64,000 nucleotides of DNA from positions 62,001 to 126,000 of the forward strand of contig NZ_JADKYM010000004.1 in assembly GCF_015475875.1 (NCBI RefSeq), in the 5' to 3' direction. The notes beneath the pieces are model-generated. The model saw only the letters and a list, made by a program, of their open reading frames with translations, did no database searches and had not been told where the DNA came from. Positions 34,365 through 52,294 of the stretch are shown here, piece after piece. Positions within the stretch are counted from its first letter, which is position 1. Every line of letters starts with the position of its first letter. The DNA is from Sphingopyxis solisilvae (GTDB lineage Bacteria; Pseudomonadota; Alphaproteobacteria; Sphingomonadales; Sphingomonadaceae). Both the position numbers and the translations under genes were made by a program.

Positions 34365-34388
34365 GGCCTGGCAGGGGCAGCAGGACTC
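34365..34388. repeat. attL candidate: 24-bp copy of the tRNA-Trp 3' end
   Basis: Identical over 24 bp to 52215-52238, which covers the 3' end of tRNA-Trp and 4 bases beyond it. It begins GGCCTGGCAGGGG. The remainder of the tRNA is absent here, as expected for the distal end of an element integrated into a tRNA 3' end. Confidence 0.85.
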
Positions 34389-34825
34389 AAATTCCAGACC
34401 TAAGTATTTGAAAAATAATGTATCGGAGTTGCAAAAATCGCAATATACCAACACTTTTGCGGCGATATACGTGGGATGTCGTGGAACTGGTTGGGACGAT
34501 TCAGCTATTTTCGATGACCGGAAGTTCATTTGCGGCAAGCTGTTCAAAACCTCCTCTGAATAGCGCGCAACTTGCTCGTGCGACGACCTGCACGGGCACA
34601 CTGAATAAGATTTTCGGAGGGTGAAAGCGAGCGCCGAGATGTACGCTCACGCTCCTGACGGTGGCGCTTCCCAATACCGTCACCTTAACGGCAGTGAGAG
34701 AATTGCTGAAAGACCGTCATGGAGTGGCCGGTAGGAGACAGGCAGCTTTTAGGTGTCAAACAAAGAGAGCGGACGTTCCGCCACGAGCTAGAGCGTTCGC
34801 TCTCTAGGATATCGATATTTCCTGG
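34389..34825. other. Island left-end spacer without a gene
   Basis: AT-richer than the flanks near 34400-34460. A stem CTAGAG/CTCTAG lies at about 34786-34805, just past the recombinase stop. No convincing ORF on either strand. It may hold integrase-binding arm sites. Confidence 0.5.
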
Positions 34826-35455
34826 TTAGACTTCGATGCCTTCCGCCAGGGTCAACGCATCTTCAACATCGACGCCGAGGTATCTCACCGTGTTTTCAAT
34901 CTTGGTGTGCCCGAGCAATATCTGCACTGCACGCAAGTTTCCGGTCGCCTTGTAAATGATCGACGCCTTTGTTCTGCGTAAAGAATGCGTCCCGTAGTCT
35001 TCACTCCGGAGACCAACCGCTGTGACCCATTCATCGACGAGACGCGCCTATTGCCGCGTGCTCATATGCGCCGAGTGATCGATGCGGCTCGGGAACGCAT
35101 AGTCCTCGATGGATCCGCCACGACGTTCGAGCCAAGCGAGGAGACTCCCGCAAGCATCCGACATGATTTCGAACTGAACTGGTCGACTAGTCTTCTGCTG
35201 AATCACCATCGCCCGCGTTCTCAACTCACCGCCGGTGACAAGGTCGCCGATCTTAATTTTCACCAGATCGCAGCCTCTCAGTTTGCTGTCGATCGCAAGA
35301 TCAAAAAGCGCCCTGTCTCGAAGCCGTTGCTCTCGGTCCAGGTGAAAGCGAATTGCCCATATCTGCCGTGGCTTCAACGGTCGCTTGGCGCCAACCTTTC
35401 GACCGGCATTCCACGCCGGTCGTGGAGGTAAATAGTCGAATTCTGACCTACCCAT
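34826..35455 (-). pseudogene. Tyrosine recombinase/integrase interrupted by one in-frame amber codon
   Basis: Reading from ATG 35455, the frame stays open to TAA at 34826-34828, except for a single TAG at 35048-35050 (codon 136). All catalytic residues are present: R60 (DSKLRGCDLVKI), H157 and R160 (GTHSLRRTKAS), H183 (ILLGHTKIENT) and Y192 (VRYLGVD). The stop falls between the first Arg and the rest, so the truncated product is inactive unless read through. At about 208 aa it is a short, catalytic-domain-only recombinase. It lies 438 bp from attL. Confidence 0.88.
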
Positions 35456-35587
35456 ATTTGTTCTCCTGCGGCCACAATGGCCAAAAGGGAAAACGCATAG
35501 GTCAAGCTGATTGCCGGTTGCGCAGGGTCGACTTGTGGGCCGACAAATCCGGAAAGCGGAAATTTTCCGAGAATGATGTCTATGCAG

Positions 35588-36832
35588 TCAAAATTTGCGA
35601 TGAAAGCTGACAAGATCGGCGTCGGGGTCACCATAGCCGCAGATAAGGCCGCGTAGCATCTGCGCGGCCATCATCGAGAAGGTGATGCCATTGCCGCCAT
35701 ATCCCATCGCGGCATAGCAATTCGGCATGCCGGGAATGCGGCCGATGGTTGGCGTGCCGACCGGACTGTCGCCGAAACTGCCAGTCCAGCTAAACGCGGG
35801 CGTCGCATCGACGCCCGGCAACAGGGCGGCAAGCTTGCGCGACAGCGTCGCGGTCTTGTCGGGAAGTTTCGCGTCGCGGAGCGCCGCATCGGCGATTTCC
35901 TCATCCTCGCCGCCGCAGATGATCTCGCCGCGCGGGGTGGTCCGGATGTAAAGGTAGGGATCGGCGGCTTCCCAGATCATCGCAGCGGTCGGCCAGATAG
36001 CGCGGGGCTGCGGGCGGGTCGCGATCGACCAGCTCGAGATGATCTTGTTTCCCTTGCGCGGGATGCCCTTCATCATTTCGTAGCCCGTTGCGACGACCAG
36101 ATGTTTCGCGCGGACGGCAGGTCCGTCTTTGGAACGGAGCGTCACGCACGCCGCGGAGGGGGTGATGTCGCAAATGTCCACTGGGGCATAGAGCCGAGCC
36201 CCGCGCGAGATGGCTACATTCAGATAGCCTGCGGCGAGGCGGCGCGGATCGGCCGAATAATTGCCGTAGCCGATAATCGCATGGCGGCCCTTGATGCCGT
36301 AGCGGTCCTCGACCTGCGCGGGTTGGAGCAATTCGATTTCAAATCCCGCCCGCCTCCGCGCCTTGGCTTCGCGAGCGAGCCCCGCCGCATCGAGCACATT
36401 TCCGTCGAGATAGATCGAGCCGCGCGTCGCGCCATCGACGGCCAGGCCCAGCCGTTCGGTCCGTTCGCGCAGCGCATCGACCGAGAGGCGTGAACGGCGC
36501 CAGATGCGTTCGGCCTTCTCACGCCCGATCCGCTCCGCCATCAATGTTAGCGGCGTATCGAGCTCATATTGCAGCATCGCGGTCGACGCGGCGGTCGATC
36601 CCTCGGCGGGGCCGCGGCGATCGACGATAACGGTCCTGAGCCCAGCGTCCGACAGCCCCTCCGCGATCAGCGCGCCTGACACGCCCGCCCCGACGACGAC
36701 GACGTCGCACGCGATGTCTCGCGTCAGCGGCTGCACGGCGATGGCAGGACGCCGCCGTGCCGACCAGATCGACTGGCCGGTCCGGAGATCGCGATGATGG
36801 GTAGCCGAAGCCGGGCTCACCAGGACAGGCAA
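35588..36832 (-). CDS. FAD-dependent oxidoreductase (DAO family)
   Basis: 414 aa if the TTG at 36832 is used; a GTG at 36820 is also possible, and neither has a good ribosome site. The dinucleotide-binding motif is DVVVVGAGVSGALIAEGL near residue 43, followed by a DAO fold. Near the C-terminus GIPGMPNCYAAMGYGGNGITF is the flavin-contacting segment. It starts right after the katE stop, so it is probably translated from the katE mRNA. Substrate unknown; an amine or amino acid is the usual class. H2O2 from it would fit the linked catalase. Confidence 0.85.
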   Translation of the reverse strand: MPVLVSPASATHHRDLRTGQSIWSARRRPAIAVQPLTRDIACDVVVVGAGVSGALIAEGLSDAGLRTVIVDRRGPAEGSTAASTAMLQYELDTPLTLMAERIGREKAERIWRRSRLSVDALRERTERLGLAVDGATRGSIYLDGNVLDAAGLAREAKARRRAGFEIELLQPAQVEDRYGIKGRHAIIGYGNYSADPRRLAAGYLNVAISRGARLYAPVDICDITPSAACVTLRSKDGPAVRAKHLVVATGYEMMKGIPRKGNKIISSWSIATRPQPRAIWPTAAMIWEAADPYLYIRTTPRGEIICGGEDEEIADAALRDAKLPDKTATLSRKLAALLPGVDATPAFSWTGSFGDSPVGTPTIGRIPGMPNCYAAMGYGGNGITFSMMAAQMLRGLICGYGDPDADLVSFHRKF

Positions 36833-38974
36833 TCAGGCAAGATCGCGCACCTTCGCTTCGCGTGCCCAGTGGCGCCGCGTTCCAACATCGGCGAATTTGT
36901 CGATCGCGACGACGCCGCCGTCCTTTTCGACGCCCGCCTTGTCGAGCAGGATTTGCGTCGCCTCGTCATGCGCAATGGTCTTGCAATGGCCAAAGGCGTC
37001 CATGAACCACTGGACCGCCGCGCTCTGCACCGACAGCGCCTTGGCCTGTTCTTCGGTCAGGATCGAGGCGACGGCGTCGAACAGGACCGAGGGCGAGCCC
37101 GCGAGCTGGCCGTCGGCCTTGAGCGCGCCACCCTTGACCTTGATCCCGCCGACTTTGGGCGCGACGAGGAAGGCCGTACCGCCGGCGCCCTTGATATCGC
37201 CCTTCAGCTTGTCGATTGCCACTTTGTCCGAGCCTTCCGCAAAGAGGATCGCGACCTTGCGGCCCTCCATGGTATCGTCGGCATTCTTCTGGATCGACAG
37301 GGCGTCGGAGGGTTTGAGATCGACCGGCGCGCGCGCAGCCTTTTCTTTTGCCGGCAGGTCGATCGCAAGACCCGCGGCTACGCGCTTCGCCAGATCCTCG
37401 TCGATGTTGCGGAGCTGACCGACAACGCGCGCGCGGACATGTTCGAGCATGACCTTCGACAGTTCGAACACCAGCGCCGAGGCAATATGCGCCTGCTCAT
37501 TCTCAGTCTGCGACAGGTAGAACATCCTCGCCTGGCTGAAATGGTCAGCGAAGAGTTCGGCGCGAATACGCAGCTTTTGCGCGGGATCGTTCCGTTCGTC
37601 GTTCGCGGCGAAGGTCGTGAAGCCCGTTTCGGCGCTCGCGCGCGGGCCACCATTCTCACCCGCTTCGGCCAAGCTGTTGGGTTCGTAATTGGCGCGTCCG
37701 GTCGGAACGAGCGTCTGCATCATCCCGTCGCGCTGGAAATTGTGGAACGGACATTTGGGCGCGTTGATCGGGATCTGGTGGAAGTTCGTCGTCCCCAGCC
37801 GCGACTTCTGCGTGTCGAGATAGGAGAAGAGCCGACCCTGAAGTAGCGGATCGTTGCTGAAATCGATACCGGGAATGATGTTCGACGGCAGGAAGGCGAC
37901 CTGTTCGGTCTCGGCAAAGAAATTGTCGACGTTGCGGTTGAGCGTCATGCGCCCGACGATCTCGACCGGAATATCCTCCTCGGGGATCAGCTTTGTCGCG
38001 TCGAGCACGTCATAAGGCTGCTTCGCCGCAAAGGTTTCGTCGAAAACCTGCACGCCCAGGTCCCACGCCGGAAAGTCGCCCGCGTCGATCGCCTCGAACA
38101 GGTCGCGGCGATGGAAATCGGGGTCGGCCCCGGCGATCTTGACCGCCTCGTCCCAAGTCGTCGATTGAATGCCGAGCACGGGCTTCCAATGGAATTTGAC
38201 GAATTTGCCGTCGCCCTTTTCATTGACGAAGCGGAAGGTGTGGACGCCGAATCCTTCGATCATGCGCAGGCTGCGCGGAATCGTGCGGTCGGACATCGCC
38301 CACATGATCATGTGCATCGCCTCTGGCATCAGGCCGATGAAATCCCAGAAGGTGTCGTGGGCGCTGGCGGCCTGCGGATAGCCGCGGTCGGCCTCCATCT
38401 TGACGCTGTGAACAAGGTCGGGGAATTTCATCGCGTCCTGGATGAAGAAGACGGGAATATTGTTGCCGACCAGATCCCAATTGCCGCTGTCGGTGTAGAG
38501 CTTGACGGCAAAGCCGCGCACGTCGCGCGGGGTATCGACCGAGCCCGCTCCGCCGGCGACCGTCGAGAAGCGAACGAATACCGGACAGGACGCGCCCTCC
38601 TTTTGCAAGATCGACGCCTTGGTGAGGCCGGGGATCGCCTTTGTGCATTCGAACACGCCATGCGCACCCGAACCGCGCGCGTGGACGATCCGTTCGGGGA
38701 TACGTTCATGATCGAAATGGAAGATTTTTTCGCGAAGGACGAAATCCTCGAGCAGCGTGGGTCCGCGCTCGCCCGCCCGCAGCGAGTTCTGGTTGTCGGA
38801 GATGCGATGCCCGAAATTATCGGTGAGATGCGCAGCGGCGTCGGCACCGGCTGCCACCATCTGGTGCAGCTCGTCGGCATTGCCGCGCTCTGCGGTCATT
38901 TTGACCTGACCGGCGCCGGGCTGGTGATCGCTGAGCGCGGTATCAGTGGCGGGCGAAGCGGGGATTTTGGGCAT
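36833..38974 (-). CDS. katE: Large-subunit (clade II) catalase KatE/HPII
   Basis: 713 aa, with AAGGAACG upstream of ATG 38974. The active-site His lies in [13 protein letters not shown] and the partner Asn in [11 protein letters not shown]. The proximal heme Tyr is in [14 protein letters not shown]. Residues after about 560 form the extra flavodoxin/DJ-1-like C-terminal domain ([16 protein letters not shown]) that marks large catalases. Decomposes H2O2 in the cytoplasm, typically in stationary phase or general stress. First gene of a pair with the FAD oxidoreductase. Confidence 0.97.
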
Positions 38975-39341
38975 CGGTCGTTCCTTGCGCCGCGGAAGGG
39001 CGACAATCCTACAATCCCCCGCTTGCCGGTATGTTGCATGACGCCCGATCGAATTTGCGGCGGACCATCATGGATCGGTATCAGCAACGAGATCCTGTGA
39101 TGATACAATAGATCGCAGAGAATCGCGCGAAACTCGCCTATTTTACATTATCGGATGAAATATTCATCGACATTAACTTAGGTTATATTTTGCATATTTG
39201 ATTCAAAATATATGCATATTGCCTTGTTTTGAGGTTTATATTTCTTACATACCATCGGGGAATCGCCAGTAAATGCGGGAATCGGGCACCCAATTCGGCG
39301 CGGACAGACCTCCGCGCCGTCATCTGAAAGTTGGAAAAAAG
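38975..39341. promoter_or_regulatory. AT-rich divergent control region between katE and the glycosyltransferase
   Basis: 39100-39260 is strikingly AT-rich for this genome. An inverted repeat ATATTTTG (39185-39192) / CAAAATAT (39204-39211) is followed by an overlapping TATGCATA palindrome. A site for a nucleoid-type silencer such as MucR, or for a stress regulator, is plausible. No ORF. Confidence 0.5.
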
Positions 39342-41609
39342 ATGCACGAAGTCATCGACCGCGCACTGTTTGACGAAGCGTGCCTGCCGGCCGACGCGCC
39401 CGACACCGCCGCGGCATCGGGAACGCGTCTGGCACTTGTCGGAGGTTTTCTCCCGCGGCGATGCGGGATCGCGACCTTTACGACCGACATTCATGCCGCG
39501 TTGAAGCTCGCGGTTCCGGGCCTTGCCGTCGACGTTTACGCGATGACGCCCGCGCCCGAAGCGATCGCTTTCGATCCCGAAATCTGTTCGACAATCACCG
39601 AAGGCGACGCCGACAGCTTTGCCGATGCGGCCCGCCGTATCGAGGCGAGCGGCGCCGACGTGATTTGGCTGCAGCATGAATTCGGCCTGTTCGGAGGATT
39701 TGCCGGCGACATGATTTTCGAACTCGTCGACCGGATCAGCGCACCGCTTGTCGTGACCTTGCATACCGTGCTGGCCGAACCCGACGCGGATCAGATGCGG
39801 GTAATGCAAAGGCTGATTGGCAGCGCCAGCAAGCTCATCGTCATGTCCGAATGCTCGCGCATTCTGCTCAAATCAATCTATTGCGCTGATGACGAGCAGA
39901 TCGTCGTGATTCCGCACGGCGTGCCCGACCGCCCCTTTGGGCGTACCGAAAAGCAGAAGGGCGTCGCCGACCTGACGGGCCGCGATGTCGTCATGACGTT
40001 CGGCCTGCTGTCGCCGGGCAAAGGGATCGAGGCAGCGATCGCCGCCTTGCCCGCGATGATCGCCGATTGCCCCGACATCCTGTACTGCATCGTCGGCGCG
40101 ACCCACCCCAACCTGCTCGCGCGCGAGGGCGAGGCCTATCGCGAACGGTTGCAGGCGCTGGCGAAGGCATTAGGCGTCGAAAGCCATATCAAGTGGATCG
40201 ACGCCTTTCTGGAAACCGATGCGTTGCTCGACCTGATCGAGGCAGCCGACATCTATGTCACCCCCTATACCGGGGCGGGCCAGTCGACGTCGGGAACGCT
40301 CGCCTATGCGATGGCCCTCGGTAAGGCAGTCGTCTCGACGCCCTATGCCCATGCCACCGAGTTGCTCGACGACGGACACGGCATTCTCGTCCCCTTTGGC
40401 GACGGCCAAGCGATCGCGGACGAGATCGTTGGGCTGCTGAGCGATCGCGACCAGCTTAGCGCGATGCAAAAACGTGCCTACCAGCGCGGGCGGCTGATGA
40501 TCTGGCCCGCTTTCGCGGCGCAGGTGCTGGCGGTGATAAATGCAGCAAAAGTGACCCCGCGGGCTTTGCCGCACCCTGCGCATGTCGGGATCGACGGCCT
40601 GCTGCGCATTTGTGACGACACCGGCATCCTCCAGCACAGCGTCCACGACATCCCGAACCGGGCGCACGGCTATTGCGTCGATGACAATGCGCGCGCGCTG
40701 ATGTTGACGAACCGGCTGGGCAAGGAGACGGAGCCGCATCGCGGCCGGTTGGCCAGCATTTTCGCGGCCTTTGTCGAGGCGTCGTGGAACGAGGAGCGCG
40801 GACAGTTTCGAAATTTCATGGACTATCGCCGAACCTGGCTGGAAGACAGCGGATCGCAGGATAGTTGCGGACGAACGCTTTGGGCGCTTGGCGCGACCGC
40901 ATTGGAAGGCCGCACCGCAAGCACGCGCTTGTGGGCCAGTCGGTTGTTCGCCCGCGCGGCGCCGTCGATGGCCCACTTTCGGTCGCCGCGCGCGATCGCC
41001 TTTGCCATGCTGGGTGCCGACTATCTTCTCGCCGCCGAAGACAGTGCGTCCGCGCGCGCCATTTTGGCGAACGGCAGCGATCGGCTGCTGGCGCTATACG
41101 AACAGGTGGCCGGGACCGATTGGGACTGGTTCGAACCCGTGCTGGCCTATGACAATGCGCGCATCCCCGAAGCCCTTATCCGCGCCGGAATGCGGTTGCA
41201 GCGCGCCGACGCGGCGCAATGCGGCCTTGCCACGCTGCGCTGGCTCAACACCGCCCAGATCGCGCCCGCCGGCCATTTCCGTCCGGTAGGGTCCGACAGC
41301 TTTGGTCGGCATCGGGAAAAACCGCGTCCGTTCGACCAGCAACCGGTCGAAGTTTGGGCCGCGATCGACGCTGCCGCGGCGGCATATGACCTTACCGGCG
41401 ATGCCATCTGGCTTGCCCATGCCCAGCGCGCCTTTCGCTGGTTTTACGGCGCAAACGATCGCGGGATTGCGATTGCCGATCCGCGCACCGGCAGTTGCCG
41501 CGACGGGATCAACCGGCGCGGCGTGAACCTGAACGAAGGCGCGGAATCGGTACTGGCCTATCAGCACGCTTGCGTCGCGTTGCGCCTTTTGACGGCGAAA
41601 ATCCATTAG
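39342..41609 (+). CDS. Glycosyltransferase fused to a C-terminal alpha-barrel-like domain
   Basis: 755 aa from ATG 39342 (MHEVIDRALFDE); an in-frame ATG at 39273 would add 23 residues. Residues 25-420 are a GT-B glycosyltransferase of the GT4 type, with LVGGFLPRRCGIATFTTD, the hinge region VMTFGLLSPGKGIEAAIAAL, and the donor-binding YTGAGQSTSGTLAYAMALGK. Residues 430-755 are all-helical with repeated aromatic and His/Asp motifs (AHGYCVDDNARALML, DWFEPVLAYDNARIPEALI), suggesting an (alpha/alpha)6 barrel. The next gene, a GH130 phosphorylase, follows at once. Probably builds a mannose- or glucose-containing glycan or compatible solute. Confidence 0.82.
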   Translation: MHEVIDRALFDEACLPADAPDTAAASGTRLALVGGFLPRRCGIATFTTDIHAALKLAVPGLAVDVYAMTPAPEAIAFDPEICSTITEGDADSFADAARRIEASGADVIWLQHEFGLFGGFAGDMIFELVDRISAPLVVTLHTVLAEPDADQMRVMQRLIGSASKLIVMSECSRILLKSIYCADDEQIVVIPHGVPDRPFGRTEKQKGVADLTGRDVVMTFGLLSPGKGIEAAIAALPAMIADCPDILYCIVGATHPNLLAREGEAYRERLQALAKALGVESHIKWIDAFLETDALLDLIEAADIYVTPYTGAGQSTSGTLAYAMALGKAVVSTPYAHATELLDDGHGILVPFGDGQAIADEIVGLLSDRDQLSAMQKRAYQRGRLMIWPAFAAQVLAVINAAKVTPRALPHPAHVGIDGLLRICDDTGILQHSVHDIPNRAHGYCVDDNARALMLTNRLGKETEPHRGRLASIFAAFVEASWNEERGQFRNFMDYRRTWLEDSGSQDSCGRTLWALGATALEGRTASTRLWASRLFARAAPSMAHFRSPRAIAFAMLGADYLLAAEDSASARAILANGSDRLLALYEQVAGTDWDWFEPVLAYDNARIPEALIRAGMRLQRADAAQCGLATLRWLNTAQIAPAGHFRPVGSDSFGRHREKPRPFDQQPVEVWAAIDAAAAAYDLTGDAIWLAHAQRAFRWFYGANDRGIAIADPRTGSCRDGINRRGVNLNEGAESVLAYQHACVALRLLTAKIH

Positions 41610-41643: not shown

Positions 41644-42924
41644 TTGCGGCTCCACGCCGACCCGGCGCGGGTCGTCGTGCGGCCGTTCCATCTCGCCTGG
41701 CAAGCGTCGGGCCCCGACCTCGATCGGGTACAGCGTCTGGCGCACGACGTCGTCGGGCTCGATATGCGCACCGTGCGGAGCGAACTGGCAACAGTGCTAC
41801 GCGATTTTGCCGACCGGCACTGGCAGATCGAAAAAGTCTTCGAAGAACGATATGTCGAGATTGAGTCCAAGCTCGGGCTCGACGGGCTGGTGCTGAGACG
41901 CGAAATGCGGCTGCTGATCGGCGCCTATTTCTGTCATGAATACAGCTATGCCGCCGCCGCGCTGATGAACCCCAGCGTCGTGCGGCACCCCGACCAGACG
42001 GGATTGCAGGAAGGAAGTGTGCGCATCATCCTTTCGCTGCGCGCCGTCGGCGAAGGCCATATTTCGACGATCGCCTTTCGCGAAGGAATCGTGTCGCCGG
42101 GCCGCGAACTGACGCTGATGCCCCAGCCGACCTTTGCGACCACGGCTATGCTGGGCATCCATCAGGCGGGCAATCAGGTGGACCGCATTTCGGTTCACTG
42201 CGACCCCGACAGCAGCATTTCGGGGACCGTCATCTTCCCGATCACCGAAGCGCAGCGCAACGGGCTGGAGGATCTGCGCCTCGTCGAATTCGAGCGCGAC
42301 AGCGGCAAGAGCGAGTGGATCGGCACCTACACCGCCTACAGCGGCAGCGCCATTCGTTCGGAATTGCTGCGGACGCGGGACTTTCGGGATTTCACCCTGA
42401 CGCCGATCAAGGGGGACGCCGCGCGCAACAAGGGGATGGCGTTGTTCCCGCGCAAGATCGACGGAAAATTCTGCATGATCGGGCGGCAGGACGGCAAGAA
42501 TCTCTACCTGCTGCGATCGGATTCGATCGACCATTGGGAAGGCGGCGAACTGCTACTCGAACCGCGTTTCCCGTGGGAGTTCGTCCAGATCGGCAATTGC
42601 GGCGCCCCGATCGAGCTCGACGAAGGCTGGCTGGTGCTGACGCATGGTGTCGGGGCGATGCGAAAATATGCGATCGGCGCGGTCCTGCTCGACAAGCAGG
42701 ACCCATCAAAGCTGCTGGGGCGCACCCCGAACCCGCTCCTGTCCGCGGCGGACGAGGACCGCGAAGGCTATGTCCCCAACGTCGTTTATACCTGCGGCGC
42801 GATCCGCGTCGGCGATGATCTTTTTCTGCCTTATGGCGTCGCCGACAGCTCGGTGTGCTTTGCCTTCATGCCCATCGCGGGCATATTGGCGGCGATGGGT
42901 ATTCATGCCGATCCGTCGGCATGA
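41644..42924 (+). CDS. GH130-family glycoside phosphorylase/hydrolase
   Basis: 426 aa from TTG 41644. The frame stays open upstream to 41593 with no ATG or GTG, so translation may begin at an ATT (41605) that overlaps the preceding stop. A five-bladed beta-propeller is suggested by repeated strand motifs. FVQIGNCGAPIELDEGWLVLTHG and GSVRIILSLRAVGEGHIST are typical of GH130. Family members act on beta-mannosides, phosphorolysing them to mannose-1-phosphate. Tight linkage to the glycosyltransferase suggests synthesis and recycling of one glycan. Confidence 0.82.
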   Translation: MRLHADPARVVVRPFHLAWQASGPDLDRVQRLAHDVVGLDMRTVRSELATVLRDFADRHWQIEKVFEERYVEIESKLGLDGLVLRREMRLLIGAYFCHEYSYAAAALMNPSVVRHPDQTGLQEGSVRIILSLRAVGEGHISTIAFREGIVSPGRELTLMPQPTFATTAMLGIHQAGNQVDRISVHCDPDSSISGTVIFPITEAQRNGLEDLRLVEFERDSGKSEWIGTYTAYSGSAIRSELLRTRDFRDFTLTPIKGDAARNKGMALFPRKIDGKFCMIGRQDGKNLYLLRSDSIDHWEGGELLLEPRFPWEFVQIGNCGAPIELDEGWLVLTHGVGAMRKYAIGAVLLDKQDPSKLLGRTPNPLLSAADEDREGYVPNVVYTCGAIRVGDDLFLPYGVADSSVCFAFMPIAGILAAMGIHADPSA

Positions 42925-43084: not shown

Positions 43085-43905
43085 GCCTCCGCCCCCAAAA
43101 CGGATTGCGCACGAACGTTCGCAGCCGACGCATGGCGAATTGCGCCCACGGTGGGTGCCGGTTTCAGGCAGGCGATCAGGGTTGCGATAACCGCACGCGT
43201 TTCCCGCGGATCGCGGACCGATACCGTGTCTAGCCCCAGCGTCTTGGCGGGATAGTCGTTGCCGCCGGGAAAGATCGCATCGCCGACGAACAGCATCGCA
43301 TCGAGCGATATGCCGCTGGCGCTCTGCAATTTCATCAGCCCATAGGCCTTGTCGACCCCTTCGCGCGTGACGTCGATCGAAGTTGCGCCGCCCATGTTGA
43401 CCGACATGCCCGGAAGCCGCTGGCGAAGGTCGCGCTGAATGACCTTGCGCTTCGCAAAGTCGGGATCCCATTTTTCCTTGGCGTCGATCGGCGCTGCCTG
43501 GCCAAGCGCCGAAAAAGTGATCTGGCTCCCGCGATCCTCGATACGCTCGCCCCACACCGCTTCGGGTACAAAGCCCGTGGCTTCAAGGGCGGCATCGAAC
43601 GCCTGGAGGATGCGATGCCTTTCATCATCCGCGAACAGCTCGGCATAGACCGGCTGCCAGGCGCCGGAACCATGGGTATAAAGTTTGGTACCCGAAGTGG
43701 GCATCAACCACATGCGCGCGATATTCGCGCGAACGGGAAGCCCCGATACAAGCTGCTTTTCGAACTGGGGCCAGTCGCCGCCCGAGATCACCGCGACATC
43801 GACAACATCGAGAAGATCCACGAGCGCTTCGCCCATTGCGGGTTCGAGCGGCTGCTTACTCGCGGCAAGCGTCCCGTCGAGATCGAAGGCGATGAGATGT
43901 TTCAT
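43081..43905 (-). CDS. HAD-superfamily phosphatase (HAD-IIB type)
   Basis: 274 aa from ATG 43905 (MKHLIAFDLDGTLAASKQ). DLDGTL is HAD motif I with the nucleophile Asp; the second Asp is the general acid. SGGDW is motif II, and LFVGDAIFPGGNDYP holds the motif IV acids. The cap placement resembles eukaryotic-type phosphomannomutase and sucrose/trehalose-phosphate phosphatases. It converges on the GH130 gene and may act on a sugar phosphate of the same pathway (inference). Confidence 0.83.
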   Translation of the reverse strand: MKHLIAFDLDGTLAASKQPLEPAMGEALVDLLDVVDVAVISGGDWPQFEKQLVSGLPVRANIARMWLMPTSGTKLYTHGSGAWQPVYAELFADDERHRILQAFDAALEATGFVPEAVWGERIEDRGSQITFSALGQAAPIDAKEKWDPDFAKRKVIQRDLRQRLPGMSVNMGGATSIDVTREGVDKAYGLMKLQSASGISLDAMLFVGDAIFPGGNDYPAKTLGLDTVSVRDPRETRAVIATLIACLKPAPTVGAIRHASAANVRAQSVLGAEA

Positions 43906-44172
43906 GGCGTGGAAATGAGATCCATATCGTCGCTCCGTTCGGCGGGAGCGCAAGGGTCTCTCAGTCGCCGGCACGCGCGTGAAGCCGTCGATACAGCTTA
44001 TGTGGTGTCGCGGCGGCCGAATTACAATCTGCTGCCGATTAAACCCGATCCCCGATTGCCCGGTTTAGGACTCGACTCCCTTCGCAATAGGTCTAGCGAG
44101 GATAGGCAAAGGCTTCCCTGCGACCCGGGAAGTCGTTGGGGCTTCCTTTGGTCACGCGTTCAGAGGATGAAG

Positions 44173-44334: not shown

Positions 44335-44732
44335 ATGACCGAGATTATCGCGCCGCGAAGCAGCACGGCATTCCCCCTGCTCCGCGGCGAGACGCTGCGC
44401 GTGATCGATCCCGAGGGTGGACAGGTCACCGACATGCTGGCCTTCGCGCGCGCCGATGTCCGCAAAGCTGTCTCGAGCGGGCGAACGTTCGATTATGAGG
44501 AAACAATCCGGATCACCACGGGTAACCGATTGTGATCGAACCGATCCAATCCGATGCTGAGATTGTCGAGGATCGCGCGGACACGCATAATTTCCTTCTG
44601 ACCCCGTGCAGCGAGGCGACCTTTCGCCATTTCTACAAGGACAAGCCCGTGCATCGGGGCCGTTTCGGCAATCTGGTCGAGGCGCTGGCGCCCTATGGCA
44701 TTGCGGCGGACTTTCAAACCGATCCACTATGA
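44335..44732 (+). pseudogene. Decayed DUF1989 (urea-carboxylase-associated family) gene
   Basis: Frame 1 (MTEIIAPRSSTAFPLLRGE) ends at TGA 44533-44535, where the family expects Trp. The homology continues in that frame (SNRSNPML), then a 1-base loss near 44556 shifts it to the frame reading EIVEDRADTHNFLLTPCSEA and beyond. It then breaks off at AADFQTDPL, leaving out the C-terminal half. So there is one nonsense change, one frameshift and a 3' truncation. Confidence 0.8.
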
Positions 44733-44832
44733 AATCGAACGCTAGCCGCAGATCGCGCGTCCGACCGCCCTAGCTCTCGCATCCTTTGGCCTGCGCAAAC
44801 GTTGGACAGGCTTCAACCGAGAGGACCGGCAC

Positions 44833-45897
44833 TTGAAAATTCCAACCTGTCTGGCCGGGGCGCTCCTGCTCACCGGCTGCAACGCCTCACCCGATAAAGA
44901 TGCAGACAAGACGCGCGTCGAAACGCAGGCGGCCGATGACAGCCTGATATTTGCCGATGCCGAGCCGGAGCAGCGGGCTTTCACCGAAACGCCCATCCTG
45001 CGCGCGCAGGTGCTGCTCGATCATCTCGGTTTTTCGCCGGGCGTCATCGACGGCAAGGAAGGCGCCTCCTATGCCGCAGCGCTGCGCGGTTTTCAGCAGG
45101 CCTATGACCTTGCCGACACGGGCAAGCTCGATGCCCCGACCGAACGGGCATTGCAGCGATGGCGGCAGGTGCCTGCAACGCGGGTCGTCATCATTCCGGC
45201 CGGGTTCGCAAAAGGTCCGTTCGTCCCCGCCTTTCCCAAGGGCGCGGCTGAGCAGGCCGAATTGCCCGCGCTCGGCTATCGCAACCTGACCGAGGCGCTG
45301 GCCGAGCGGTTCCATACGACGCCCGAAATGCTCGTCGCACTGAACGGTGCGGCGACGCTGGTGGGCGCTGGTCGACCGTTCCGCGTCCCCAACATCCCCA
45401 ACATCGACCGATCGACGCTTGGTGAGGATGCGCGCGGCTGGAACGCGACGCTCGAACAGCTGGGTGTTGCGCCCGATCAACCTGGCGCCGCCAGGGTCGT
45501 GGTCGACAAATCCGAAGGCGTGCTGAAAGTGTTCGGCGGCGACGACAAGCTGATCGCGCAATTCCCCGCGACGATGGGCAGCAGCCGCGATCCGTTGCCG
45601 ATTGGGACGTGGAAGATCCAGGGCGTCAGCCGCAACCCCGAATTTCACTATAATCCCAAACTCTTCTGGGATGTGAGCGACAGCAAGGAGGCGGTGCTCC
45701 TGCAGCCCGGGCCGAACAGCCCCGTCGGCGTCGCGTGGATCGACATCAACAAGCCGCATTACGGCATTCACGGCACCAGCGAACCGCACACGATCGGGCG
45801 CGCCGAAAGCCATGGCTGCGTCCGATTGACCAACTGGGATGCGGCGCGATTGGCGCAGATGGTGAAACCCGGCACGCCTGCCATTTTCCAGAATTGA
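44833..45897 (+). CDS. L,D-transpeptidase lipoprotein (YkuD/ErfK family)
   Basis: 354 aa from TTG 44833, with GAGAGGA upstream. Lipobox LLTGC at residues 12-16. A peptidoglycan-binding domain spans about 50-105 (RAQVLLDHLGFSPGVIDGKEG). A LysM-like segment follows at about 130-185 and the YkuD catalytic domain at about 215-354. HGTSEPHTIGRAESHGCVRL has the catalytic His and Cys. It makes 3-3 crosslinks or anchors proteins to peptidoglycan in the periplasm. Confidence 0.92.
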   Translation: MKIPTCLAGALLLTGCNASPDKDADKTRVETQAADDSLIFADAEPEQRAFTETPILRAQVLLDHLGFSPGVIDGKEGASYAAALRGFQQAYDLADTGKLDAPTERALQRWRQVPATRVVIIPAGFAKGPFVPAFPKGAAEQAELPALGYRNLTEALAERFHTTPEMLVALNGAATLVGAGRPFRVPNIPNIDRSTLGEDARGWNATLEQLGVAPDQPGAARVVVDKSEGVLKVFGGDDKLIAQFPATMGSSRDPLPIGTWKIQGVSRNPEFHYNPKLFWDVSDSKEAVLLQPGPNSPVGVAWIDINKPHYGIHGTSEPHTIGRAESHGCVRLTNWDAARLAQMVKPGTPAIFQN

Positions 45898-46015: not shown

Positions 46016-46060
46016 GGGACTCTAAGGCGCCAGCGCCCCTCGCCTTTCCAGCAGGACCGA

Positions 46061-47320
46061 ATGCAAGAGCAGCCCTTCTTTGCGCTCAGCACCTATCATG
46101 TCGGCATGGCGCTGATCGGCGCCGGGATAATCGCGGCCTTCTGGTTGCCGCGCTTCCTGTCGAGGCGCGAGCCCGCCGCGTCGGCGCTGCTGATCCTTTT
46201 CGGTATCGCGATTCACTGGCTATTGCCCGACGTCGCCGAAGCGCTCGATCCGCGCACAGCACCCCGATTCTGGGAACTCGCGAGCGAAATGGCGGTGATC
46301 GTCGCCCTGTTCGGCACCGGCATCCGGATCGACGACCTATCGAACTATCGCCGCTGGCGGCCGACGGTCCGGTTGCTGGTGATCGCCATGCCGCTGACCA
46401 TCGCTGCGGTGGCGTTGATGGGGCTGACCTTTGGCGGGATGACGCTCGCGGGCGCCATCCTGCTCGGCGCGGTATTGGCGCCGACCGATCCCGTGCTCGC
46501 CGGCGAAGTCCAGGTCGGTCCGCCCACGCGGGGCGAAGAACAGCCGGTCCGGTTCGCGCTGACCACCGAAGCGGGGCTGAACGACGGGCTGGCCTTTCCA
46601 TTCGTCTATCTGGGCCTGCTCGTCGGGACGACCGGCTTTTCCGCGGCGATGCTGGGCGAATGGCTGCTCCTCGACGTACTCTATCGCATCCTTATTGGCT
46701 GCATCGGCGGCGCGGCGGTCGGGTGGCTGCTCGCGCGCATCCTGTTCGTCATCCCGCGCGGCAATGTGCTGGCCAACACCGCCTCGGGCGTGCTGGCGAT
46801 CGCGGGGATATTGCTCTGCTATGGCGCGACCGAATTGGCCGAGGGATACGGGTTTATCGCCTGCTTCGTGGCAGGGATCGTGCTTCGCCGGTTCGAGGCG
46901 AGCCATGAATTCCACGGCAAGCTCCACAGCTTCAACGAGGCTATCGAACTCGCGCTCACCGCGCTGCTGCTCATCCTCATTGGTGGCACCTTTCCGCTGC
47001 TGTTCGGCGAACTCGACTGGGCGCACGCCGCCATTGCCGCCGGTCTGTTGTTCGTCGTGCGGCCGCTGGCCGGATGGTTCAGCCTGTTTGGCACCGACCT
47101 GCCGCCACAGGACCGGCTCGTCGTTGCCTTTTATGGGGTGCGCGGGATCGGATCGATTTATTACCTCGCTTATGCAACCAGCCACCTCGAGCTGGTGAAC
47201 GAAGGACAATTATGGGCGACGATCGCGCTGACGATCCTGTTGTCCACCGTCGTGCACGGGTTCACCGCGGGGCCGGTCGTCGATCATATCGTTCGGCGCC
47301 AGCAGAGAGAACGCACCTGA
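46061..47320 (+). CDS. Cation/proton antiporter (NhaP-type, CPA1 family)
   Basis: 419 aa, about 12 membrane helices. AVLAPTDPVLAGEV and TTEAGLNDGLAFPFVYL (ND motif) are the core ion-binding segments of CPA1 antiporters. No C-terminal RCK domain. It exchanges Na+ or K+ for H+ across the inner membrane. An EcfG-type promoter match lies 46-71 bases upstream, which puts it in the general stress response by inference. Confidence 0.92.
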   Translation: MQEQPFFALSTYHVGMALIGAGIIAAFWLPRFLSRREPAASALLILFGIAIHWLLPDVAEALDPRTAPRFWELASEMAVIVALFGTGIRIDDLSNYRRWRPTVRLLVIAMPLTIAAVALMGLTFGGMTLAGAILLGAVLAPTDPVLAGEVQVGPPTRGEEQPVRFALTTEAGLNDGLAFPFVYLGLLVGTTGFSAAMLGEWLLLDVLYRILIGCIGGAAVGWLLARILFVIPRGNVLANTASGVLAIAGILLCYGATELAEGYGFIACFVAGIVLRRFEASHEFHGKLHSFNEAIELALTALLLILIGGTFPLLFGELDWAHAAIAAGLLFVVRPLAGWFSLFGTDLPPQDRLVVAFYGVRGIGSIYYLAYATSHLELVNEGQLWATIALTILLSTVVHGFTAGPVVDHIVRRQQRERT

Positions 47321-47606
47321 CGTATCGACGGGCACCGCGACCGGTCCGATTTCGGCCCGCGGGCGATACTTCGATTATCCTTCCGGTAAATAGGCCGCTC
47401 GCCGCCATGGGAATTGGGGTTATGGCCTTCCTCTCACCCGTTGCAGGGAAATTGCGGCTATTTCGATTTCGTGCACGATCTGCGCTGCCCGCATGCTAAG
47501 CACGGGTTTCGGGGCAATGGTCGTCGACGTCGATCCACCTTGCCCCACATATTGGTCCCCCACAAGGCCGCGTCCTGCGGTCCGGGCCGACCGGGAAGGG
47601 CGCCGC

Positions 47607-48677
47607 ATGGCTGCCGACAATCCATCGATCAATCTGGGCCGCACGCTGGGGCTCGCGGTGGTGCTCGCCTCCGACGCGCCGCTGCTGCTGCTCGACGAAA
47701 ATCTGGCGATCGTCGCGGCGAGCGACAGTTTCTGCGAAGCGTTCGGCATCAACCCCGAAACCGTCACCGGTCAGACGATCTATGACCTCGACCATCATCA
47801 CTGGGACTTGCCGCGGCTCCACTCGCTGATCGAAGCGACGCTGTCGGGCGCCGCCGAGGTCGAAGCCTATGAGATGGAGATTGAGACCAGCGCCGGGACC
47901 TCGCGCTGCGTCGTGATCAAGGCGCAGCGCCTCGACTATGGCGACATCCACCACACGCGGATGATGGTCACCGTGATCGACGTGACCGAGGAGCGGCAGA
48001 ACGAAAAGCGCCACAAGGAGCTGGTCCACGCCAACGCCACGCTACTCCACGAAATGCAGCACCGCGTCGCCAACAGCCTGCAAATCATCGCCAGCATCTT
48101 GATGCAGAGCGCACGCAAGGTGCAGTCGAGCGAGGCGCGCGGCCATTTGAACGACGCGCATCAACGCGTGATGTCGATCGCGACGCTGCAACGCCACCTT
48201 GCCGAATCGAAGGGCGGCGCGGTCGAGCTCGAACCCTATCTGGCGCAGTTGTGCGCCAGCATCGGTGTGTCGATGATCTATGACCGCGAACAATTGACGC
48301 TGACAACCTCGGTCGATCCGGTGTCGATCGACGGCGATGTATCGGTCAGCATGGGGCTGGTCGTCACCGAACTGGTGATCAACGCGCTCAAGCACGCCTT
48401 TCCGGGCGGGCGCCCCGGCCATGTCGTCGTCGGCTATGCCGCGACGGGCGACGACTGGACGCTGTCGGTATCCGACGATGGCATCGGCATGGCCGAAAAT
48501 GCCGAGCGGTCGGCGGCGGGGCTGGGCACGCGCATCGTTCAGGCGCTCGCCAAGCAATTGAGGGCGGAGATACTGGTCGAGGATGCCGCGCCGGGAACGC
48601 GCGTATCGCTGACCCACACCGCGCAGATCGCGCGGCAGGTCGCGGCGAACGACGAAGCGGAAAGCGCGGCGGTGTAA
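47607..48677 (+). CDS. HWE/HisKA_2-family histidine kinase with N-terminal PAS domain
   Basis: 356 aa from ATG 47607 (MAADNPSINL), with GAAGGG upstream. PAS domain at about 22-130. The phospho-acceptor box is LLHEMQHRVANSLQIIASIL with H152. The ATPase domain has GLVVTELVINALKHAFPGG (N box) and SDDGIGM (G box). There is no membrane segment, so it is cytoplasmic. Kinases of this family feed the PhyR-EcfG general stress pathway in sphingomonads (family knowledge). A shortened paralogue is at 50961-51620. Confidence 0.9.
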   Translation: MAADNPSINLGRTLGLAVVLASDAPLLLLDENLAIVAASDSFCEAFGINPETVTGQTIYDLDHHHWDLPRLHSLIEATLSGAAEVEAYEMEIETSAGTSRCVVIKAQRLDYGDIHHTRMMVTVIDVTEERQNEKRHKELVHANATLLHEMQHRVANSLQIIASILMQSARKVQSSEARGHLNDAHQRVMSIATLQRHLAESKGGAVELEPYLAQLCASIGVSMIYDREQLTLTTSVDPVSIDGDVSVSMGLVVTELVINALKHAFPGGRPGHVVVGYAATGDDWTLSVSDDGIGMAENAERSAAGLGTRIVQALAKQLRAEILVEDAAPGTRVSLTHTAQIARQVAANDEAESAAV

Positions 48678-49439: not shown

Positions 49440-49464
49440 GGAACAATACCAACTGCAGAGTGTT
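49440..49464 (+). promoter_or_regulatory. EcfG-type promoter before the aromatic-repeat protein
   Basis: GGAAC (49440-49444), then GTT (49462-49464), which is a 16-base spacer to TGTT. It fits the EcfG general stress consensus with one mismatch (T for C). The gene start follows at 49508. Confidence 0.55.
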
Positions 49465-49507
49465 CATCAACAGCGAGCGGCATTTTGTCAGCTCCAGGAG
49501 CTCCCCA

Positions 49508-50845
49508 ATGTACAGGTTTATTTTCGCGGCGAATATCGCCGCTATCGCCCTTGTTCCGTCCATCGCCGGCGCACGAACGCAGTCGCAGGCGACCTGCGAA
49601 GAACAGCGCTCAACGCGCGTCGTCGCCACCATCGGAGGCGCCGCAGCCGGCGGCGTGCTCGGCAATGTCGTCGCCGGTCGTGGCGACAAGACGGTCGGAA
49701 CCGTGATCGGCGCCGCCGCAGGAGCCGCTCTCGCCAACCAGATCGCTAAACCGACGCGCGATTGCCGCGACGCATTTGGTTATTACGACAATGAAAATCG
49801 CTGGCACGCCACCGGCGTAAAATCCTCCGATGCCCGCGGCTACTATAATCGTGACGGGATATGGGTCGATGGTCCGCCCAACGGTCGATATGGCAGCGAT
49901 GGCCGCTGGGTGACTTACGCGGCGTCCAGTCGCGGAGAAGGCGACTATCGGCCGGGCGGCGAATGGGTGCCCGCATCGGCCAACGGTTATTACGACCGCG
50001 ACGACATCTGGGTGCCGGGTTCGGCAAGCGGTCGGTATGACGATCGCGGGCGCTGGATCGGAACCACCGCTTCAAACCCGCCAACTCGCCGCGACGACGC
50101 CTATGGCTATTACGACCCCGCCGGCGCGTGGCACGCGACATCGACCGCGCGCGGCCGGGCTACCGGTTATTATGACCGCGATAACAAGTGGGTCACCGGA
50201 ACGCCGAACGGCTATTATGACGAACGGCGTAACTGGATTCCCCAGCGCGAGGACGGAACGGCAAGCGGCAGCTATGACGGCCAGAACCGCTGGATACCAG
50301 CCTCTTCGGCCGGCTATTATGATGACAATGATCGCTGGATAACCGGTGCCGCAAGCGGCCACTATGATCAGCGCGGCCGGTGGGTCGCTGGCGTAACCAT
50401 CGGTCATTATGACGCGAACGGCCGCTGGATTGCCGGCGCGGCAGGCGGACGCCGCGACGCGAACGGACATTGGGTCGCCGATCCGCATCCGGGCTATTAT
50501 GATCGGAATGGCCGATGGAACGCCGGAGCGACGACGGGCTATTACGACGCCCGCGGTCGCTGGATCCCCACCGGACGCGAGGGCATGGGCAGCGACGATG
50601 GAACGAACCGCCCCGCTATCCTCTCGCAGCTCGCCAACCTCGAACAATATGTCCGCACCGCCCGATCGGAGCGCACGATCGACAACCGGACGGCCATGAG
50701 TGCCAGCCGCGAGCTGCGATCCATTCGCACCAGCGAGCGAGCCATGCATCATGACCGGATGGACCGGCTGTCAGCGCGCAACGAAGCCGCGCTTCAGTCG
50801 CGGATCGATCGCCTGAATCTTCGCCTGCGGCTCAGCCCGCAGTAA
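49508..50845 (+). CDS. Secreted glycine-zipper protein with 16 aromatic GYYDxxGRW-type repeats
   Basis: 445 aa from ATG 49508, with AGGAG upstream. Signal peptide residues 1-21. A glycine-zipper segment follows at about 38-80 (VVATIGGAAAGGVLGNVVAG). Residues 91-356 hold 16 repeats of about 16 residues on the pattern G-Y-Y-D-x-x-G-R-W-V/I, each with small-residue spacers (for example ATGYYDRDNKWVTGT). The last 85 residues are charged and helical. No enzyme motif. Probably an outer-membrane or periplasmic structural protein; the function of such repeats is unknown. Confidence 0.8.
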   Translation: MYRFIFAANIAAIALVPSIAGARTQSQATCEEQRSTRVVATIGGAAAGGVLGNVVAGRGDKTVGTVIGAAAGAALANQIAKPTRDCRDAFGYYDNENRWHATGVKSSDARGYYNRDGIWVDGPPNGRYGSDGRWVTYAASSRGEGDYRPGGEWVPASANGYYDRDDIWVPGSASGRYDDRGRWIGTTASNPPTRRDDAYGYYDPAGAWHATSTARGRATGYYDRDNKWVTGTPNGYYDERRNWIPQREDGTASGSYDGQNRWIPASSAGYYDDNDRWITGAASGHYDQRGRWVAGVTIGHYDANGRWIAGAAGGRRDANGHWVADPHPGYYDRNGRWNAGATTGYYDARGRWIPTGREGMGSDDGTNRPAILSQLANLEQYVRTARSERTIDNRTAMSASRELRSIRTSERAMHHDRMDRLSARNEAALQSRIDRLNLRLRLSPQ

Positions 50846-50960
50846 AACGAACGTCCATCAAAAGGGGATCTGCCGCTTCCGCTCAATGCGGGGGCGGCAG
50901 CTTCTTGTCCCGATCATGGCGGAGTTGGCAGGGAGATCTTGTCAACCGGCCCGGACCGCT

Positions 50961-51620
50961 TCAGCCGGCACCGACCGGCGCGTCGTGCACGATCGAAACC
51001 CTGGTTCCGGGATTGGCGCCCACCGTTTCGACGGTCGCGTGAAGCTGTCTCGCCAGGGCTTCGACAATACTGGTCCCGAGGCCGGGCTTAGCCGCAGCCA
51101 GCTTGCGCGGTGTGCCTGCGCCGTCGTCACGGACCGTCAGCGTCCATGACACGCCCAGCGCATGACAATCCATCAGGATCGTTCCACCGCGTTCGCCCGG
51201 GCACGCATGCTTGAGCGCATTGATGAAGAGTTCGGTCACGATCAGCCCGAGGCTGACCGAGATGTCGGCATTCACCATACTGTCGTCCTCGCTCACCTTG
51301 AGCGAGACAATATCCGGGTCGCAGATCATCGAGGCGCCGAGGCTCTGGCAAAACTGCGTGAAATAGGCGCGCAATTCGACCTCGCCCAACCGCGACGCCG
51401 CAAGTTGTTGCTGGACGGTGGCAATCGACATCACGCGATTATGCGCATCGCGAAGATGGCTTCTCGTCTTTTCCGACTGCACCCTCCTCGCGCACTGCAT
51501 GAGCACGCTGGCGATGATCGTGAAATCCTGGTCGAGCAGAAGGGCGGGTGCATCGGAGACGGCAATGACGGTAAGCGCGAGATCGAGCGCAACGTAGACA
51601 TGGATGGTGCGGGTCATCAT
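50961..51620 (-). CDS. HWE/HisKA_2-type kinase paralogue lacking the PAS domain and the phospho-acceptor His
   Basis: 219 aa from ATG 51620 (51617 also possible), with AGGGG upstream. The first 35 residues match the start of the 47607 kinase PAS domain (VSDAPALLLDQDFTI). It then jumps straight to IASVLMQCARRVQSEKTRSH, which in the paralogue lies just after the H box. About 125 residues are missing in frame, including the PAS core and the histidine. The ATPase domain is intact (GLIVTELFINALKHACPGE, RDDGAGTP). It cannot autophosphorylate in the usual way but could bind ATP or partner proteins. Confidence 0.82.
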   Translation of the reverse strand: MMTRTIHVYVALDLALTVIAVSDAPALLLDQDFTIIASVLMQCARRVQSEKTRSHLRDAHNRVMSIATVQQQLAASRLGEVELRAYFTQFCQSLGASMICDPDIVSLKVSEDDSMVNADISVSLGLIVTELFINALKHACPGERGGTILMDCHALGVSWTLTVRDDGAGTPRKLAAAKPGLGTSIVEALARQLHATVETVGANPGTRVSIVHDAPVGAG

Positions 51621-52214
51621 GGCCCCTTTCGGGGAGACCAGAGAGCTGACGAGCTTGAAAGCCGGGTCCGGGGAGAAACGGCGCGCTCGCGAATACGAAA
51701 AGCCTGCCGCTAACAGGGACGGAATATCATGAATGCAGGCGCGCCGCGCCAAGATCCCGCTCCATCGGCGGTTACGCGCGATCGATTGAGCAAGGGGTTC
51801 GGTATTGCCTCGTGTCGCCATCGCTCACTAAAGCCAAGCGACCGCTTTCAGGTGGCGAATGACTCGGGCTGAAAGGCTGAAATCGGGCGCAAAGCCGCCT
51901 TTCGCGCCTTCAAATTACCGCTTAGGACTCGAACCTGCGCCGCGGATTTGGATGGTGCCCGACAACCGCCCACGCTAGGCCATTCTAAATTTAACGATTC
52001 GAATTCAGGACATTTCGGGAATTGTTGGTAAGCGTCGACAGACTTCGGCCGGATACCAACAATCGTACCAACAAATTGCTCGAACTGGGCTCAATCTGAA
52101 AATTCCGCGTGAGACGCCCCGGGACGATTTGGGATCGTTCAATCCAACGCTTTTCAGCCAATTTTTCGCTGCTGAAGGTGGGACGCTGTGGGACGTCATG
52201 GGACGCTCTGGGTC
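51621..52214. other. Island right-end spacer with short direct repeats (putative integrase arm sites)
   Basis: No convincing gene. Two TTGTTGGTA units, 3 bases apart on the minus strand (about 52055-52075), and one on the plus strand (52021-52029). GGGACG recurs with a 10-bp helical period at 52181 and 52191, and GGACG at 52201, right beside attR. Such phased repeats are typical of integrase or excisionase arms. Confidence 0.5.
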
Positions 52215-52218
52215 GGCC

Positions 52219-52294
52219 TGGCAGGGGCAGCAGGACTCGAACCCGCGACCCTCGGTTTTGGAGACCGATGCTCTACCAACTGAGCTATACCCCT
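52219..52294 (-). tRNA. tRNA-Trp (anticodon CCA), attachment site of the island
   Basis: On the minus strand, AGGGGTA pairs with TGCCCCT. The D-loop is AGTTGGTA, the anticodon loop is TCTCCAAAA (CCA), and the T-loop is TTCGAGT. CCA is encoded at 52219-52221. 76 nt. Its last 20 bases lie in the 24-bp repeat shared with 34365-34388, so the island insertion regenerated an intact gene. Confidence 0.97.

Follow-up and report, generated by a model that had tools for sequence, protein, structure and literature searches.

How did a block of stress-related genes come to lie between a tRNA-Trp gene and a second copy of that gene's 3' end, and can the block still move? We asked this of the island at positions 34365-52238 in a 64,000-nucleotide stretch of Sphingopyxis solisilvae (contig NZ_JADKYM010000004.1, positions 62,001 to 126,000; hereafter the window, whose numbering is used throughout). 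Our answer, to which we assign a probability of roughly 0.8, is that the island is an immobile relict of an integrative element that targeted tRNA-Trp and carried general-stress cargo. An exact 24-bp repeat, the putative attachment (att) sequence, marks both ends; the starts of its two copies lie 17,850 bp apart, and similarity extends across 36 bp at 86%. The tRNA-Trp is complete according to both ARAGORN and Rfam and lies on the minus strand with its 3' end pointing toward the island. Because the tRNA ends at 52219, 20 of the 24 repeated bp are tRNA 3' end and 4 bp lie outside the tRNA. Exact matches of the tRNA region within positions 30475-52214 reach these 24 bp at most, against a maximum of 14 and a mean of 10.7 in 20 first-order Markov resamples. 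The repeat, its coordinates and the inward-facing tRNA, all reported in an earlier note on this DNA, are thus confirmed far above chance. The pattern of the tRNA 3' end, allowing up to two mismatches, is present in 72 of 80 genus genomes, and a second copy occurs in three of the 80, namely the S. solisilvae source genome and the relatives that we call G020 and G086.

The relatives reveal what this site looks like without the island. We sampled tRNA-Trp loci from 34 same-genus genomes, taking up to 18.5 kb on the 3' side of the tRNA and including the EamA gene. The tRNA lies beside the EamA gene in 32 of the 34 loci; G015 and G017 have an EamA relative and no tRNA-Trp in the examined stretch, and G018 gave no EamA match. 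In 13 of the 32 loci a native leader lies within 130 bp of tRNA-Trp and is followed by an SMR-type gene, with the island genes absent there. The island gene set was found at none of the 32 loci within the examined stretch, which on the island side spans at least 17 kb in 27 of them and is shortened to 0.2-13 kb by contig ends in G009, G010, G004, G026 and G027. Close relatives that all carry the same genes without the second repeat copy, which according to the earlier note would speak against an insertion, were not encountered within this range. Gene calls in the relatives are those of our own codon-usage caller, which misses or mis-starts some genes. Island proteins used as queries (E 1e-10, 40% coverage) do find single or partial matches at three loci: the glycosyltransferase (52%) and the HAD hydrolase (75-76%) in G020, the antiporter (81%, adjoining the tRNA) in G024, and a kinase (29%) in G021, where the matching protein carries a HisKA_2 domain.

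The left flank has a history of its own. In G011 about 0.4 kb separates tRNA-Trp from a homologue of the window gene at 29698-30474; we take this gene and its neighbours to be a B12 uptake (btu-like) operon, and a cobalamin riboswitch lies upstream of the homologous btu-like genes in three loci (L069, L072 and L073). The names SMR, btu and fbpCB are presumptive. A succession of btu-like operon, SMR-type gene, tRNA-Trp and EamA gene is the probable ancestral state. The window, part of contig C34 of the 3.38-Mb source genome, instead has an ATPase gene, a gap of about 45 bp and an fbpCBA-like iron operon ahead of the far att copy. In the closest relatives (G021, G010 and G034) the fbpA relative and tRNA-Trp lie on separate contigs and the former has other neighbours, the neighbours of the operon vary among the fbp-carrying relatives examined (G021 and G015 are unlike G010 and G034), and the SMR-type gene of the source genome, with a similar leader, is found on contig C19. 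This arrangement indicates that the left flank is rearranged and that the fbpCBA-like operon is not native at tRNA-Trp. The empty site that the earlier note proposed to look for, with fbpA directly after tRNA-Trp, would thus fail as a test for the wrong reason.

The sequences adjoining the repeat provide a further link to other elements at this tRNA. On its inner side the far att copy has a flank (34365-34547, about 183 bp) that is 69% identical to G020 C1:1392707, beside the second att copy of that genome, and 148 bp of this flank (34376-34523) are 77% identical to a stretch of G034 located 2.2 kb from tRNA-Trp. The tRNA-proximal arm (about 246-247 bp) is 75% identical to a sequence in G021, where the order is SMR-type gene, kinase, arm, tRNA. 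Related arms at the same tRNA in G021, G034 and G020 suggest that tRNA-Trp was targeted more than once by related elements. The att duplication, the native site in 13 of 32 loci and these related arms together support integration at tRNA-Trp, as the earlier note had proposed. At 51924-51939, 0.3 kb inside the island, there is also a 16-nt T-arm-like fragment (94% identical to tRNA-Trp), which may be the remnant of another att site or a product of chance. Rfam at its gathering threshold reported only the tRNA in 27000-55000.

In G020 the same tRNA is occupied by a much larger element, with att copies 112.6 kb apart (C1:1392707-1505346). The integrase beside its tRNA-Trp has 454 aa and the domains Arm-DNA-bind_3, Phage_int_M and Phage_integrase. 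The element encodes transfer-type proteins, comprising TrbI, VirB4-like and VirB11-like ATPases, the coupling protein of a type IV secretion system (T4SS), ParB and a DUF3363 protein that we take to be the relaxase, and judged by this gene content it is a putative conjugative element. Its cargo includes hybrid kinases, hemerythrin, LigD, an Exo_endo_phos protein, DUF1989, an FAD/NAD reductase and a Crp regulator, as well as a large catalase, cyanophycin synthetase, peptidase S51, a DAO-Rieske protein, a glycosyltransferase, a ManC-like nucleotidyltransferase, HAD and SDR proteins. We regard it as itself a candidate integrative and conjugative element (ICE) with stress cargo, and the stress theme of the S. 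solisilvae island is better founded because an element at the same site combines stress cargo with transfer genes. In a tblastn search over the loci compared, the G020-type integrase was found beside tRNA-Trp in complete form in G020, in two pieces at 83% in G009, over 183 of 454 residues at 66% in G086, and as fragments in G016. The same search of the window gave nothing significant (best E 0.037, outside the island).

Two other tRNA genes have integrase-like neighbours. Contig C48 of the source genome carries a P4-type integrase gene (L200:14317-15851; 68% to that of G020) beside tRNA-Gln, a possible second island. In G024, a 40-kb stretch (C1:1783001-1823000) that begins with tRNA-Tyr followed by a gene resembling integrases (29% to that of G020) carries genes for a repeat protein, a HAD protein, a glycosyltransferase, GH130, a catalase, an oxidase and a kinase.

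The history that we propose begins with an element for which the 3' end of tRNA-Trp would have served as the target of site-specific recombination; its insertion would have left an intact tRNA at one end and the 24-bp duplicate at the other. The integrating enzyme was most likely a P4-type integrase as in G020, which is absent here and presumably was lost. The cargo would have been assembled from stress-gene modules that are found at many loci of the genus.

Table 1. Features of the island and its borders, with positions in the window.
Feature	Position	Strand	Basis
fbpCBA-like iron ATP-binding cassette (ABC) operon, left neighbour	30519..34180	-	solute-binding protein by Pfam, rest presumed
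Far att copy, duplicate of tRNA-Trp 3' end + 4 bp	34365..34388	+	24-bp exact match
Inner att arm	34389..34547	no strand	similarity to G020 and G034
~0.8-kb mobile unit with broken tyrosine recombinase	34725..35513	-	pseudogene 34826-35455
FAD-dependent oxidoreductase (DAO family)	35588..36832	-	family scan
Large-subunit catalase with Catalase_C	36833..38974	-	family scan
GT4-type glycosyltransferase, long form	39273..41609	+	family scan
GH130 mannoside phosphorylase family protein	41644..42924	+	family scan
HAD-IIB / phosphomannomutase-like hydrolase	43081..43974	-	family scan
DUF1989 pseudogene	44335..44739	+	family via homology to G020 protein
L,D-transpeptidase (YkuD + PG_binding_1)	44833..45897	+	family scan
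Na+(K+)/H+ antiporter	46061..47320	+	family scan
PAS-HisKA_2 sensor kinase with HRVAN	47493..48677	+	family scan and alignment
EcfG-type site GGAAC-N16-TGTT upstream of repeat protein	49440..49464	+	motif match to published promoter
Repeat protein with a glycine zipper and numerous repeats of the GYYDxxGRW type	49460..50845	+	family scan, repeat inspection
HisKA_2 kinase deletion derivative	50961..51821	-	alignment to G008 and G060
tRNA-proximal att arm	51973..52214	no strand	75% to G021, same tRNA
tRNA-proximal att copy within tRNA-Trp 3' end	52215..52238	-	exact repeat
tRNA-Trp (CCA), complete, integration target	52219..52294	-	ARAGORN and Rfam

The genes between the two att copies (Table 1) are those that the earlier note listed, with some corrections: the recombinase gene is a pseudogene, and a broken DUF1989 gene between the genes for the HAD hydrolase and the L,D-transpeptidase had been missed. 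Compared with its homologue in G034 the latter has an in-frame stop, a frameshift and an internal deletion. The note's two HWE kinases are two HisKA_2 kinases by Pfam (the HWE_HK model scores more weakly on one and was unreported for the other), and only one of them is intact; the other has lost 124 residues that G008 and G060 retain, among them the PAS and phospho-acceptor region. The intact kinase has PhyK as its top NCBIfam match, at 109 bits against a cut-off of 750, and carries the sequence HRVAN, an instance of HRxxN, which we take to be the name of the phospho-acceptor motif of kinases of the general stress response (GSR). The GH130 protein is nearest to mannobiose phosphorylases, with a score below the cut-off. 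An AlphaFold model of the repeat protein, built on five sequences, shows a run of short strands at a mean predicted local distance difference test (pLDDT) score of 46; among named genomes the nearest repeat proteins are those of Sphingopyxis terrae NBRC 15098, at 96%, and Sphingopyxis sp. H073, whose best segment reaches 98%. The statement that the cargo lacks phage and conjugation genes holds for the scanned island open reading frames, among which, the recombinase aside, no phage or conjugation family was matched and no relaxase, coupling protein, T4SS component, Clp or HSP20 match was found. With the DUF1989 gene broken, one kinase devoid of its phospho-acceptor and the integrase absent, the island is decaying.

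If the cargo functions as its families suggest, it would reinforce the EcfG/PhyR general stress response with additional genes directed at peroxide, osmotic, pH and envelope stress. The catalase would remove peroxide; the glycosyltransferase, the GH130 protein and the phosphomannomutase-like HAD protein may build a mannose-based glycan; the L,D-transpeptidase would cross-link the wall, the antiporter would balance ions and pH, and the glycine-zipper repeat protein may serve the envelope. The island would now be immobile.

The connection to EcfG can be followed in promoter sites. The parts of the Sphingopyxis granuli TFA study on which we draw give the general-stress promoter as GGAAC-N16-CGTT with a flexible -10 box and TGTT among the natural variants (PMC7083833). 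Those of the S. melonis Fr1 study put into the EcfG-dependent set catalases and, under adjacent numbers, a glycosyltransferase and a glycosidase, which does not imply orthology to the island genes (PMC6599016). HWE/HisKA2 kinases are described in these studies as feeding PhyR (PMC7083833 / PMC6599016). A site of this type lies upstream of the repeat-protein gene in the window and in six of eight other loci (present in G024, G060, G008, L159, L163 and L162, absent from G013 and L160; the scan accepted spacers of 15-18 and any of C, T and A ahead of GTT). A site upstream of the glycosyltransferase gene occurs at nine of 13 relatives' loci (eight of 13 exactly, in a narrower scan), and none was found in the window. 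Counting sites at gene starts with a spacer of 16-17, we found 2 among 10 island genes, 0 among 39 other window genes, 5 among 67 genes of the G020 element, 14 among 261 genes of other stress loci (a set that includes orthologues, which are not independent, and comes from loci picked for their stress genes), and 0 among 417 genes of the remaining tRNA-Trp loci, our background; a reversed-motif control gave 0, 1, 0, 2 and 2 in the same order. With a spacer of 16 only, the counts were 1, 0, 3, 13 and 0, and those of the control 0, 0, 0, 1 and 2. These sites suggest EcfG control of cargo. The general-stress character of the cargo is supported by the EcfG-type site, by the kinase whose nearest family is PhyK (below cut-off), and by the stress element in G020.

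The cargo is also a mosaic, as judged from how its parts are distributed elsewhere in the genus. Island DNA has matches in at least 54 of 60 genus genomes, the source genome included. Among the matches listed, the oxidase-catalase block reaches 85-88% in fuller matches and the glycosyltransferase-GH130-HAD block is contiguous at 85% in G016. The DUF1989-transpeptidase and antiporter blocks are found at 83-86% in G034, 5.3 kb apart; the intact kinase is a further separate block; and the block of the repeat protein and the truncated kinase is 93% identical in G008, 91% in G060 and 93% in S. terrae. Core-stretch identity is 85-87% for G008 and 88-90% for G060, so that the repeat-protein module lies above the core for G008 (near it for G060), which points to recent transfer. 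The genes for catalase, oxidase, glycosyltransferase, GH130 and HAD co-occur in eight of 17 loci that had been picked for having matches, and of the 204 other genes around those loci 168 are singletons at 45% identity; the surroundings thus mostly differ. In Croceibacterium selenioxidans (L160) genes for the repeat protein, DUF1989 and catalase lie close together, so the association recurs in another genus. A plasmid search with island DNA returned 42 records, and among the 30 listed each is a single-piece match to one gene, where annotated that for catalase, antiporter or HAD. Of the earlier note's transferable general-stress package the stress character stands; with no integrase of the tRNA-Trp type and a partly broken cargo, present transferability is not supported, and the package is a mosaic.

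Several results weigh against a relict stress element at tRNA-Trp. Because the left flank is rearranged, the original left junction is unreadable. For the right arm of the island no counterpart in G020 was reported. The cargo proteins of G020 are not close orthologues (its catalase is 55% identical to that of the window, alongside the glycosyltransferase and HAD values given above); the two islands therefore share site and theme, not cargo descent. A search at five other tRNA-proximal stress loci (G024, G069, G016, G008 and G060; 20 or 40 kb each) found no att duplicates, except that G069 has a partial repeat of tRNA-Gly (25 bp, about 0.1 kb downstream) and that in G016 a second tRNA-Glu follows in tandem. 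Apart from the repeat-protein module, no module exceeds core genes in identity. Composition, which the earlier note proposed as a check, does not mark the cargo as foreign: the modules have 62-65% G+C against 63-65% in both window flanks, with lower values in the att arms (49-53%), the recombinase unit (54.5%) and positions 48678-48997 (59%). Within the island the only conserved EcfG-type site is that of the repeat protein; the catalase gene has none at 14 loci, the window included, and the antiporter site (spacer 17) was not found at its two orthologues. Motif counts do not exceed the controls in the whole window (7 sites against 6.7 expected) or in the whole genome (45 against 70 reversed-motif sites); the evidence of value on the motif is its presence near gene starts and its conservation.

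The mosaic raises the possibility that there never was a single island, and that the modules arrived stepwise in a variable region beside tRNA-Trp, by homologous recombination or separate insertions, with the att pair recording one early event. Every module has its own distribution and level of identity, the matches end at about 39.3, 44.2, 48.9 and 51.9 kb, and the left flank was rearranged too. However, all modules lie between two att copies that have kept their sequence well, and the parallel stress cargo enclosed by the att pair of G020 suggests that sets of this kind can move jointly. Among the alternatives stepwise arrival survives best, but we consider it the less probable history.

That the island is intact and self-mobile, integrated by the tyrosine recombinase beside 34365, which could still move it, is very improbable. 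The far att copy does have the recombinase gene as a neighbour, at a distance of about 0.4 kb, and the earlier note implied that this gene encodes the island's integrase. It encodes a protein of 209 aa with the catalytic domain only, and the window copy is interrupted by one in-frame TAG. Matches to it occur in 24 of 40 genus genomes, the source genome included, at unrelated loci, and of those listed none but the window's own lies near tRNA-Trp. Intact copies, 97-98% identical, are present in six of the 40 genomes (G001, G008, G020, G024, G060 and G061). Ten loci align solely over 34725 to about 35483-35521, with a sharp edge (TGGCCG...) at 34725; this abrupt end of homology suggests that the recombinase belongs to a mobile unit of its own, about 0.8 kb long. 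A similar end sequence is found at the other side of the unit in G060, G024 and G020, and a search for a second copy of the unit's end within the window gave no significant match. The junction between the recombinase and the pair of FAD-oxidase and catalase genes is shared with G069, where it lies away from tRNA-Trp and the recombinase frame is open, so the unit and the oxidase-catalase block probably moved together. Relatives of the recombinase occur on 1331 plasmid records, 1183 of them below 60% identity. The integrase role that the earlier note implied for this enzyme, which is broken and of a different type from that of G020, is not upheld.

A vertically inherited ancestral stress locus beside an incidental tRNA fragment would fit the native-like G+C and third-codon-position G+C (GC3) and the wide occurrence of the cargo families, but it is highly unlikely given that the set is absent from all 32 tRNA-Trp loci within the examined stretch, that among the matches listed the closest relatives have the catalase away from tRNA-Trp (G010, G021 and G034) and FAD-oxidase homologues of 78% that do not adjoin it (G021 and G034), and that the inner flank of the repeat resembles the att arms of other elements. 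Elsewhere in the window, at 9765-10109, ARAGORN reports a permuted tmRNA with the tag ANDNEALALAA.

General stress tolerance is usually regarded as core physiology. If EcfG-driven genes do travel as cargo of tRNA-linked elements, a single acquisition could confer tolerance of peroxide, osmotic and envelope stress, and, since only the promoter motif would be required, the moved genes would plug into the host's own sigma-factor circuit. A wider picture, which we put forward tentatively and with more doubt than belief, is that Sphingopyxis hosts a family of conjugative elements targeting tRNA-Trp that carry EcfG-controlled stress sets from one species to another and would be the alphaproteobacterial counterpart to the transmissible locus of stress tolerance (tLST). 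Stress clusters might then cycle between elements and scattered chromosomal loci, and the window would hold the fossil of one delivery. The G020 element is a direct test case for mobile EcfG-driven stress cargo. Among titles and abstract openings, a coverage that leaves out most subscription journals, we found no account of this island or of an ICE with stress cargo in Sphingopyxis. Genomic islands are reported in the paper on the S. granuli genome, whose main text as available to us contains neither "tRNA-Trp" nor "catalase" (PMC4741004).

Set beside known systems, the island resembles the tRNA-integrated islands and ICEs with P4-type (Arm-DNA-bind_3/DUF4102) integrases. It shares with them the duplicated tRNA 3' end, the complete tRNA that is kept and the variable content among relatives, one of which, G020, has such an integrase together with T4SS genes. 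A direct repeat with a complete tRNA and a site free of island genes in relatives are thus both present. Unlike those elements, the island has no functional cognate integrase and, among its scanned open reading frames, none of the relaxase, coupling protein and T4SS genes that define an ICE, and its cargo is stress physiology. The heat-shock core of the tLST presumably consists of ClpK, small heat-shock proteins and others, and the island, as far as its open reading frames were scanned, does not contain it. The island resembles the tLST, so far as the part of its literature considered here describes it, in being a horizontally moved set of general-stress genes on a genomic island; it differs in carrying a catalase, glycan genes, an L,D-transpeptidase, an antiporter and a GSR-type kinase, with no Clp or HSP20 match in the scanned frames, and in its suggested control by EcfG. 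The EcfG/PhyR accounts of S. granuli and S. melonis, in the portions used here, describe regulons, not mobile cargo. The island shares with the S. granuli TFA regulon the promoter motif, in its TGTT variant and for the repeat protein only (PMC7083833), and with the S. melonis Fr1 regulon, by description, catalase, glycosyltransferase and glycosidase-type genes (PMC6599016).

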